Assembly (NCBI GenBank): GCA_003003725.1
Contig: PVWI01000014.1
Location: 1-41,291, forward strand
Direction of reading: 5' to 3'
Length of the DNA: 41,291 nt
Origin: a filamentous cyanobacterium Phorm 6
GTDB taxonomy: Bacteria > Cyanobacteriota > Cyanobacteriia > Cyanobacteriales > Microcoleaceae
Below, piece after piece: positions 24,427 to 27,651 of this stretch (within the stretch, counting starts at the first letter, position 1; each line of letters opens with the position of its first letter). Below the pieces are notes generated by a model that worked only from the letters and a program-made list of their open reading frames with translations, had not been told where the DNA came from and did no database searches. Made by a program: the position numbers and the translations under genes.

Positions 24427-24580
24427 CTGTAATTCGAGATTTGCGATCGGCTAAATAGTCCGGTTGGGTGATGTTAACACTCGATCGTCGAAAGTATCTT
24501 TAAAATAGATACATTGATTTGTGGAAAATCAAGCGCAAACAAAGCAAAAAGATTTTAAAACTCACCAAAAGAGGTTTATT

Positions 24581-25378
24581 ATGAAAGCACATAACGTTTT
24601 AAACAGTATTGCCGCCGCTGTGCTAGTTACAGGATTGGCACTCACAGGGATTTCTTCTAGTGCGGTTGCTGAACAGATCGGAAATGGCGATCGTATAGAT
24701 GGAGTAATTCGCCGCACTTCCCCAATTTACCGTTTCCGAAATATGTGGACTCCCGGTGCTCCGGTAGAAGAATTGCGGGGTCAAGAATACACTTTCAGTG
24801 CTAACGAAGGCGACGACATTCAAGTTTATTTAGACACTAATAGACGCGGCTTTACTCCCGTGATGGTGCTATTTTACGGAAATAACAAACAAGTAGCTTT
24901 TACGCAAGATAATTCTTTTAATTATCGGATTCCCCGTAGCGGTGATTACAAACTGTTAGTGTTAGCAAAAGATGCTGCTAGGGGCGGAGATTATACGCTG
25001 GAAGTTGCGGGAATTGATGGTGGCGACAGACGGACTAGCAATAGGCGCGATGACAGAAACGACAGGGACAGAAACAACCGCAACTACGACGGAGAACGGA
25101 TTTTGCGGGATGATTTTGGCTTGCGACCTCTTGATTGTCGCGTGAGACGTACTATGGTGAGAGTAAGGTTTGAGGATGCCGACAGAAACGAGACTTATTG
25201 CGCTGAACCGAGTCGCCAGTATCCGCAGGGAGATTATTATTACAATTCGCGGACTAGGGATTTAGATTCGGCGAGGAATGATGATGGTAGATTCGATCGC
25301 TCTAATGATGATAGCAGGTTCGATCCAAGTCGAGATCAATGTCGCGTATCTGTAGGCGGAGTGTGCGTGACTAGGTAA
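24581..25378 (+). CDS. Secreted PPC-like domain protein
   Basis: This 265-residue protein has a clear signal peptide (MKAHNVLNSIAAAVLVTGLA to SSSAVA, cleavage before EQIG). The mature N-terminal part (about 35-150) resembles a bacterial pre-peptidase C-terminal (PPC) beta-sandwich, with YTFSANEGDDIQVYLD and FNYRIPRSGDYKLLVLAKD. A highly charged Asp/Arg/Asn-rich linker follows (about 152-180). A C-terminal part with four cysteines (DCRVRR, YCAEP, QCRVSVGGVCVTR) may form disulfides outside the cell. I start at the ATG at 24581 because GAGG lies at good spacing; an upstream GTG frame (24521) would bury the signal peptide. No enzymatic domain is present, so it is probably a surface or binding protein. 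Confidence 0.8.
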   Translation: MKAHNVLNSIAAAVLVTGLALTGISSSAVAEQIGNGDRIDGVIRRTSPIYRFRNMWTPGAPVEELRGQEYTFSANEGDDIQVYLDTNRRGFTPVMVLFYGNNKQVAFTQDNSFNYRIPRSGDYKLLVLAKDAARGGDYTLEVAGIDGGDRRTSNRRDDRNDRDRNNRNYDGERILRDDFGLRPLDCRVRRTMVRVRFEDADRNETYCAEPSRQYPQGDYYYNSRTRDLDSARNDDGRFDRSNDDSRFDPSRDQCRVSVGGVCVTR

Positions 25379-25878
25379 GTGGAAAAAACAATCATCTTTT
25401 CCGAGGAATTGTAGGGGCGGGTTCACCCTAATTTGTAACTCAAATCAACAATATTTATAAACCCGCCCCCACCCATCGGTAGGGTGGGGGCGGGTTTATC
25501 AGTTCTGGGATTTGATGATCTGAATTGGGGTGAACCCGCCCCTACGAATCTTGGTGTTTTAGATATTTTGGGGATTCGTGAAGATGTAATTGCGATCGAA
25601 ATAAAGTGTAGTTAATCCATCGCAAAAGTTCGATATTTCAACTGTTTTATTCGCAATAAATTGGTATATATTCGGCTAGTCCTTAAGTTTTTTTAGGATT
25701 GTAGCGCGGGTTCCGAAACCCGGTTTCTTGGTAGAAATCGGGTTTCTTTGCGTCGCGAGTTTCCATTCAATTAGTTTCCCCAGCGAGTGGGGAGATTATT
25801 GAATTTATTCAATAGTCAGTTGCTGCTTACCAGCTAAAATTTATGAGGCAATTAATTCAGTTTCAAAAACAATGGATA
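25379..25878. other. Intergenic region with nested hairpin
   Basis: No gene is seen before the small minus-strand frame. It holds the nested inverted repeat at 25411-25545, AAACCCGGTTTCTTGG repeat fragments (about 25708-25750), and the first CRISPR-like repeat at 25760-25798. Confidence 0.6.
25411..25545. repeat. Nested double inverted repeat
   Basis: An outer pair of perfect 18-bp arms (GTAGGGGCGGGTTCACCC, 25411-25428 and 25528-25545) encloses an inner pair of perfect 18-bp arms (ATAAACCCGCCCCCACCC, 25457-25474 and 25482-25499). It follows the PPC protein stop by 32 bp. Confidence 0.85.
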
Positions 25879-26182
25879 CTATTGATATTTAAGGCTTCCG
25901 TTTTCATTGTATTCAAGCTCATGATACTTGCCACCTAAACCTAAATCATGTAAGCACCTCTGGTAGTTTATTGGGCCCATATCAAAAGCATTAGTCTGAT
26001 TCAATCTTGCCCATTCAGCTACTCTTAGCTGGCTAGTTACCCCTGAAGCATCAGCTACGGTTTTGACAATCCAATCAAACATCTTTATTTACTCTTTAAG
26101 TTCGTATAATTTAATTATATTCCTATTGATTTTTTTGGGTCAAGTTTCCATTCAATTATTTTCCCCAGCGAGTGGGGAGATT
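25760..26182 (-). CRISPR. Decayed CRISPR locus: two repeats
   Basis: Two 39-bp direct repeats, 25760-25798 and 26144-26182, differ at one base only. On the minus strand they read AATCTCCCCACTCGCTGGGG then AAA-A/C-TAATTGAATGGAAAC, with a TCCCCA/TGGGGA stem around CTCGC and a GAAAC 3' end, both typical of cyanobacterial CRISPR repeats. The 345 bp between them is too long for a spacer and holds a 67-codon frame. A leader-like segment adjoins the right repeat. No cas gene is in the window. I read it as an array remnant. Confidence 0.55.
25879..26082 (-). CDS. Small hypothetical protein between CRISPR-like repeats
   Basis: A 67-codon frame (start MFDWIVKTVADASGVTSQLR, ending GSLKYQ) with soluble, mixed composition and no signal peptide. 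The C-terminal half has a Gly-rich turn (HDLGLGGKYHELEYNENG). I do not recognise a family. Only a weak AAAG precedes the ATG at 26080-26082. It lies wholly between the two CRISPR-like repeats, on the strand on which the array would be transcribed. It could be a chance frame in former spacer/insert DNA or a small gene that inserted into the array. Confidence 0.4.
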   Translation of the reverse strand: MFDWIVKTVADASGVTSQLRVAEWARLNQTNAFDMGPINYQRCLHDLGLGGKYHELEYNENGSLKYQ

Positions 26183-26340
26183 TGCGAGGGTTCCCAAAAT
26201 TATTCGTCAAAACTCCTTCAACTCCGCACCAAAAATTGCTGAAACCCTTGCCCAGTAATGCTGCAAGGGCTATGACCAAACTGCGTCATCTCAGCCATTT
26301 TCCCTTAAGCCTCGCAAATGGTCTGAGTTCGATCGCAATT
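26183..26340 (-). promoter_or_regulatory. Leader-like flank of the CRISPR remnant
   Basis: Adjacent to the right repeat, ATTTGCGAGG (26180-26189) and CCTCGCAAAT (26310-26319) form a perfect 10-bp inverted repeat enclosing a CCCTTGC/GCAAGGG hairpin (26245-26269). This AT-rich, hairpin-bearing sequence at the repeat's 5' side (minus strand) resembles cyanobacterial CRISPR leaders as I recall them. It could instead be an unrelated repeat. Confidence 0.4.
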
Positions 26341-26586: not shown

Positions 26587-27651
26587 ATGTCGGCATTAAA
26601 TGAAGTTCCCTTACTGTTGCGGGCAGCCCGCGGCGAAACCCTAGAACGCCCGCCCGTGTGGATGATGCGCCAAGCCGGTCGCTACATGAAGGCCTATCGA
26701 GATTTGCGAGAAAAGTATCCCTCCTTTCGCGAACGTTCCGAAATTCCCGAAGTCGCCATCGAAGTTTCCCTTCAGCCGTGGCGCGCGTTTCAACCCGACG
26801 GCGTAATTCTGTTTTCCGATATTGTCACCCCAATGCCCGGTTTGGGCATCGACATGGACATCGCCGAAGGCAAAGGCCCGATTATCGACGCACCCATCCG
26901 CACTCAGCAGCAAATCGACAACCTCCAACCGCTGAATCCCGAAGAAAGCTTGCCGTTTATCAAAACAATCCTGCAATCCCTGCGCGCGGAAGTCGGCAAC
27001 AAGTCCACCGTGCTCGGTTTTGTGGGCGCGCCTTGGACGCTGGCAGCCTATGCGGTTGAGGGTAAAGGTTCTAAGTATTATGCCATCATCAAAAACATGG
27101 CATTTTCCGATCCAACTTTACTGCATCAGTTGCTGTCAAAATTCGCCGATGCGATCGCAGTTTATATGCGCTACCAAATCGACTGCGGCGCGCAAGTAGT
27201 CCAAATGTTCGACTCCTGGGCCGGCCAAATGTCCCCGCAGGACTACGAAACCTTCGCTTTACCATACCAAAAACAGGTATTTGAGCAAGTCAAAAAAACC
27301 CATCCCGACACCCCGCTAATTCTGTTAGTCAGCGGCAGTGGCGGCCTCCTCGAACGCATGACAAAATCCGGCGCGGATATCATCAGCGTCGATTGGACAG
27401 TTGATATGGCCGACGCGCGCCGACGTTTGGGCCCCAACATGAACGTTCAGGGAAATCTCGATCCGGGCGTATTGTTTGGTTCTCATGGGTTTATTCGCGA
27501 TCGAATTCTTGATACAATTCGCAAAGCGGGCCCGCGCGGACACATCCTCAACTTAGGACACGGCGTGTTACCGGGAACCCCCGAAGATAACGTGCGTTTC
27601 TTCTTTGAAACCGCCAAACAAGCTGACAAATTGCTCGCAGTTACTGCTTAA
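26587..27651 (+). CDS. hemE: Uroporphyrinogen decarboxylase
   Basis: HemE removes four carboxylates from uroporphyrinogen III to give coproporphyrinogen III, on the route to haem and chlorophyll, in the cytoplasm. The 354-residue length is typical. Signatures are [20 protein letters not shown] near residue 21, [48 protein letters not shown] and the C-terminal [18 protein letters not shown]. The start ATG at 26587 follows an AAGGTAGAGAAAAG stretch. It is a single gene, with two perfect hairpin repeats following in the next 70 bp. Identification is secure. Confidence 0.98.

Follow-up and report, generated by a model that had tools for sequence, protein, structure and literature searches.

Two CRISPR repeats that enclose a small gene lie between hemE and a conserved open reading frame (ORF) in the stretch of DNA analysed here (hereafter the window; 41,291 nt). 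The features of this locus are, in order of position:

24521–25378, plus strand: 285-aa ORF, the locus's conserved neighbour on the left; no family above cut-off
25758–25797, minus strand: R2, the terminal CRISPR repeat, distal to the leader; identical to the core of the array repeat
25798–25878, minus strand: 3′ flank of the small gene, inside the giant ‘spacer’; AT-rich palindrome TATTGAATAAATTCAATA adjoining R2
25879–26082, minus strand: small gene for 67 aa (MFDWIVKTVADASGVTSQ...), a member of a 15-sequence family
26114–26143, minus strand: sigma-70-like promoter, TTGACC-18-TATAAT; 11 of 12 consensus matches
26143–26182, minus strand: R1, the CRISPR repeat on the leader side, with a single change from GGGGAAAC to GGGGAAAA (minus strand)
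26183–26319, minus strand: CRISPR leader body, recognized by alignment to array leaders and bounded by a 13-nt inverted repeat
26587–27651, plus strand: hemE (TIGR01464), conserved right neighbour that anchors the site

R1 and R2 are 40 nt each, identical at 39 positions, and separated by 345 nt (385 nt start to start). The original prediction, a decayed CRISPR locus without cas genes, had named two near-identical repeats with one mismatch, a stem and a GAAAC 3′-end on the minus strand, and this description is borne out: on that strand both form a hairpin of CUCCCC, a loop and GGGGA (−9.4 kcal/mol each, z of about −2) and end in GGAAAC. R2 matches the core of the array repeat at 36 of 36 positions and R1 at 35 of 36. 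The 39-mer proposed from the sequence is a genuine CRISPR repeat, for its pattern occurs 44 times in the own genome, with 42 of the matches in three arrays and two at the window locus. A search of this genome with positions 25740–26340 gave 45 matches, namely the query, one weak other and 43 repeat copies on three other contigs, where they form ordinary arrays of 17 (C413), 18 (C187) and 8 repeats (C129, at a contig end). The pattern is present in 22 of the 29 genomes of the genus, and its reversed control gave no match; in Rfam, none of eight matches reaches the gathering score. The C187 array adjoins the type III-B genes Cmr4, Cmr6 and Csx1 and a partial Cas1. This Cas1 (L010:5358–5954) matches only the second half of the Cas1 models and may therefore be truncated; Cas1 and Cas6 families are also present at other places in the genome. 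Beside the window locus, as had been claimed, no cas gene was found among the 26 distinct window ORFs scanned, each library covering part of them (NCBIfam 7 ORFs, Pfam 10 and PADLOC 10).

The same site was compared in the genus. hemE was matched in 26 of the 29 genomes (all except G293, G294 and G299), and the sequence upstream of it was inspected in every one of the 26 over up to 1.5 kb, and over a longer stretch in seven (L058–L061 and L063–L065); less than 1.5 kb is present at two of the 26 loci, L043 and L056. An ordinary array occupies the site in at least seven of these 26 genomes, the own one counted among them, and has 3 to 23 repeats: 23 in G264, 13 in G250, 10 in G303, 8 in G292, 7 and one short copy in G302, at least 5 in G301 (contig end) and 3 in G092. 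Six genomes have the gene-bearing form (G000, G298, G001, G179, G297 and G277), two have faint repeats (G166 and G209), and in 11 no repeats were seen within the stretch inspected (up to 1.5 kb). Since the G302 array begins about 1.6 kb upstream, more distant arrays are possible in these 11, and seven is a lower bound. The orthology extends beyond the repeats: the 60 nt outside R2 are identical at 57, 55 and 56 positions to those that flank the terminal array repeat on its outer side in G264, G303 and G302, respectively, and G303 keeps 91% identity to window positions 25385–25757. Nested inverted repeats of a GTAGGGGCGGGTTCACCC element lie at 25406–25550 of the window, with further copies upstream of hemE in L014 and L046. 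The orthologous arrays support the reading of the locus as a decayed CRISPR locus. One might still take R1 and R2 for a chance pair of dispersed, non-CRISPR repeats, as just two copies lie at the window locus, 345 nt apart; a generic dispersed repeat is ruled out by the three arrays of the same repeat in the own genome and by those at the orthologous site, which leave this reading next to no probability. One chromosomal site gives a comparable series of full array, gene-bearing frozen array, faint relic and no array seen, by which the question of how arrays die becomes testable.

What the window locus does not have is regular spacers (about 35–50 nt, unique) and a complete leader. Its single interval is 345 nt long, while the intervals in the ordinary arrays compared are 32–53 nt, with single exceptions of 62 nt (C129) and 114 nt (G302). 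The latter, at L065:2957–3070, conceals one more repeat with a 1-nt loss. The right flank had been predicted to be the leader, which holds for the leader body and fails for the whole: positions 26183–26319 can be aligned with array leaders, both those of the intact orthologous arrays and those of C129, C413 and C187, and the 43 nt that should join this body to the repeat are gone. The arms of the inverted repeat, ATTTGCGAGGGTT at 26180–26192 and AAGCCTCGCAAAT at 26307–26319, are 92% complementary, and both are found with at most one mismatch in the leaders of four of the five intact orthologous arrays checked. By BLAST, the leader body is 82–88% identical in G264, G303, G301 and G302; at that cut-off the match is only partial in G292 and G092, and G250 gives none. 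The 43 nt between repeat and leader body are present in nine of the 11 ordinary arrays compared, the exceptions being G302, with foreign sequence in their place, and G092, with a deletion. They are absent from all six gene carriers, and no copy of them with up to 3 mismatches lies anywhere in the window. In G302, about 450 bp of other sequence lie between the last repeat and the leader body (L065:3107–3559). G092 (L044/L063), a non-carrier with a three-repeat array, lacks 66 nt of the G250 leader by a deletion that begins exactly at the repeat edge and differs from the 43-nt loss of the carriers. A two-repeat array in G179 (contig C21; L121:2197–2305) has its repeat-side leader end whole, and the sequence that follows has a start-like stretch, ATGAATTC, and looks coding.

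The gene-bearing form has also lost a promoter-like element, T(G/A)GACA-19-TA(T/A)(A/G)AT, a pattern composed after viewing the leaders and found in seven of the 10 array leaders scanned; it is absent in C413, C187 and G302, yet C413 and C187 are otherwise normal-looking. Spacer uptake is described in a review as requiring the leader and at least one repeat (PMC9048733). Judged from its sequence, the window array, with the 43 repeat-adjacent nt gone, looks dead for spacer uptake and is probably dead for crRNA transcription as well. The 43 nt are likely to be a critical element of this repeat family.

The wide spacing of the repeats had been ascribed to something that replaced the spacers or was inserted into them, and the interval indeed contains a conserved gene. 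Relatives of this 67-aa gene were found at eight loci in genome contigs, and it is present in 12 genomes from two genera, the own one among them, out of 291 of the order. The 15 family sequences have 35 invariant columns in common, and none of the 12 genome matches has an in-frame stop. Two lineages within the genus, one at the hemE site and the other beside rbfA, differ by dS of 0.92–1.22 and dN of 0.06–0.10 (dN/dS of about 0.06–0.08; G300 excluded from the codon set), which indicates that the gene is under strong purifying selection. Its candidate promoter, TTGACC-18-TATAAT, lies downstream of R1 and abuts the R1 core, with one base within the 40-nt repeat; it scores best of five sites in a promoter scan of the stretch, in which shuffles gave 1.4 expected. 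G298 and G179 have a similar promoter, G277 has TATCAT, and the first hexamer of G297 is TTTATC. On the other side of the gene, the inner 66 nt of the 3′ flank (to 25881) are kept in all six carriers, and the outer 18 nt are lost together with R2 in G179, G297 and G277. No known family for the protein was found in Pfam, NCBIfam, PHROGs or PADLOC, tblastn at E up to 1 matched nothing in phages or plasmids, and no match in viral contigs was confirmed. The best hits of a PDB sequence search have E of only 0.27 and 0.34. No fold is assigned, because the AlphaFold model (three helices, pLDDT 70.5) is weak and its best Foldseek E is 1.7. The insert was also considered as a protospacer and rejected as such: 102 intervals from ten loci, compared with the insert, the window and five gene loci, matched over 11–20 nt only (best E 0.002), with the one exception of a repeat inside a 114-nt interval.

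The rbfA lineage adjoins that gene in five genomes (G033, G285, G288, G109 and G300); on the far side, a CRR42-like gene is in view in four of them. Repeats of the window kind were not found at the rbfA-site copies in the loci scanned, and all repeat-flanked copies of the gene are at hemE. The four hemE carriers with both rbfA and CRR42 in view (G298, G179, G001 and G297) have the gap without the 67-aa gene, and no genome among those searched has two copies. Where both genes are in view (L078–L103), the rbfA–CRR42 gap measures 147 to 821 bp and seems by eye to hold different small genes in several species; it is perhaps a hot spot for small inserts. When the insert was compared with 61 genomes of the family, near full-length matches were obtained in the six hemE copies only; the five rbfA copies matched over the gene and G299 over the promoter. 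In G299 (C6:63088–63156; L120:9589–9657), the promoter of the gene and half a CRISPR repeat stand fused (62/71 identical, E 9e-19); the gene itself is absent, and the 19.5-kb region inspected there contains no hemE.

The carriers are scattered over the gene trees. On the hemE tree (25 of 26 genomes used; G300 left out for length) the six stand in several places, some forks being unresolved, and the five present on the GH3 tree are likewise not together (G000 is absent, as GH3 is only a fragment on its contig). G297 falls with G219 and G291 on the GH3 tree (100/100) but apart from both on the hemE tree, as expected if its hemE region was replaced. Synonymous changes among carriers are rarer in the ORF than in hemE: a one-sided Fisher test gives P<0.05 for 10 of the 15 carrier pairs and, at the rbfA site, for five of six. 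These are guide values only, since the pairs share ancestry and are not independent. Identity of the window to G001, G179 and G297 is at least 90% from 25816 to about 26215 and then drops, whereas that to G298 stays high well past this point and that to G277 sinks to 85% across R1 and the promoter. The scatter of carriers on the gene trees suggests lateral spread, although it could also reflect an old polymorphism with losses.

R1 of G001, G179 and G297 is identical at 40 of 40 positions to that of the window (38 in G298 and 36 in G277), while the adjoining leader in these three is 78–85% identical; the promoter is identical at 60 of 60 positions in G001 and G179. Such conservation, which holds even for G001 with no other exact pattern copy, is unexpected for a pure relic unless its spread was recent, and points either to recent transfer or to selection on R1. 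We favour transfer, because R2 is missing from three of the six carriers (G179, G297 and G277) and because R1 of G277, like R2 of G001, has lost the repeat hairpin (−3.7 kcal/mol, z of about 0). The odd hairpin-less variant occurs as R2 in G001 (L022:1789–1825) and as R1 in G277 (L023:1761–1797), as if the R1 and R2 sequences had been exchanged between them. G297 holds 69 pattern repeats.

We consider it probable (roughly 0.8) that the locus is the remnant of a dead CRISPR array that carries a kept 67-aa gene and that, so altered, has passed between species. The orthology with arrays, the repeat identity, the leader homology, the 43-nt loss, the conservation of the gene and its scattered distribution are observed, and we infer the following order of events. 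The array would originally have lain between the 285-aa ORF and hemE, where it is still whole in relatives, and the small gene with its own promoter would have come between two repeats. The remaining repeat-spacer units would then have been lost, probably via recombination between repeats. Deletion of the 43 leader nt beside the first repeat would have removed a presumed integration anchor as well as the promoter-like element, so that the locus would neither acquire spacers nor yield pre-crRNA from the usual start. The 67-aa gene would have been kept and expressed from the putative promoter beside R1, and the altered locus probably moved between species by homologous recombination through its flanks. 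As none of the genomes searched shows the gene inside a fuller array, its capture in a live array is a step that we infer.

Alternatively, the repeats could be working parts of the gene, with Cas6 cutting R1 and R2 or binding R1 and so tuning a small mRNA to the CRISPR system of the host, in the manner of ectopic repeats such as CreTA. The conservation of R1 above that of its leader and the promoter that abuts it fit this proposal, as do Cas6-family matches in five of the six carriers. However, R2 is dispensable, being gone from half of the carriers, the repeat hairpin has been lost from R1 in G277 and from R2 in G001, G297 gave no Cas6 match (by a single model, positive in just two of 14 control genomes), and R1 would lie outside an mRNA that starts downstream of it; together with the deleted array promoter-like element and the 345-nt spacing, this makes such tuning quite improbable. 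Slightly less improbable, though still unlikely, is that gene and repeats make up a mobile cassette, with CRISPR repeats serving as its recombination edges, which travels from array to array in the way of a giant spacer. The promoter with half a repeat in G299, the conserved tract of G001, G179 and G297 and the gene at other sites in other species would agree with it. Against this stand a single extra place in 388 genomes among the matches listed (2 candidates per genome scored), the rbfA-site copies without such repeats, the confinement of repeat-flanked copies to hemE, and the similarity of G298 far past the tract that G277 interrupts by a dip. A broader proposal, which we regard as unlikely but somewhat less so than the cassette, is that arrays can capture an entire gene in the manner of a giant spacer and subsequently freeze by a deletion starting exactly at the leader-repeat junction, giving up local immunity for a spreading repeat-bounded cassette. 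The 66-nt deletion of G092, which starts from the repeat edge, is a hint that arrays may die at the very site that Cas1 cuts.

A dead array remnant with a kept gene resembles several known systems in part. It shares with orphan or decayed arrays, which have no adjacent cas genes and are used in trans, a repeat found in arrays elsewhere, one of them beside III-B genes, and a leader body with no cas genes found beside it; it differs from them in having only two repeats, an interval of 345 nt with a conserved gene and promoter, and the loss of the 43 repeat-adjacent leader nt in all six carriers. Ectopic CRISPR repeats such as those of CreTA likewise lie singly or in pairs apart from a regular array, next to a small unit that is expressed, but the CreTA repeats are described as extensively degenerated and produce a guide RNA (PMC9458426). 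The window repeats, in contrast, are nearly perfect, although two degenerate copies occur in other carriers; no interval of guide length lies between them, and the unit codes for a protein. Racr, the phage RNA anti-CRISPRs with solitary repeats (PMC10651486), are alike in their isolated repeat unit, whereas the window locus is what is left of an array beside hemE, relatives have full arrays at the orthologous site, and phage records and viral contigs yielded no relative of its gene. Among the literature matches listed, which cover few subscription papers, none reports a conserved gene as the sole ‘spacer’ of an array. Decayed arrays themselves are already known; what is new is an array insert that is a conserved gene with its own promoter-like sequence, and in some Microcoleus-type cyanobacteria a dying CRISPR array can thus become the home of such a gene.
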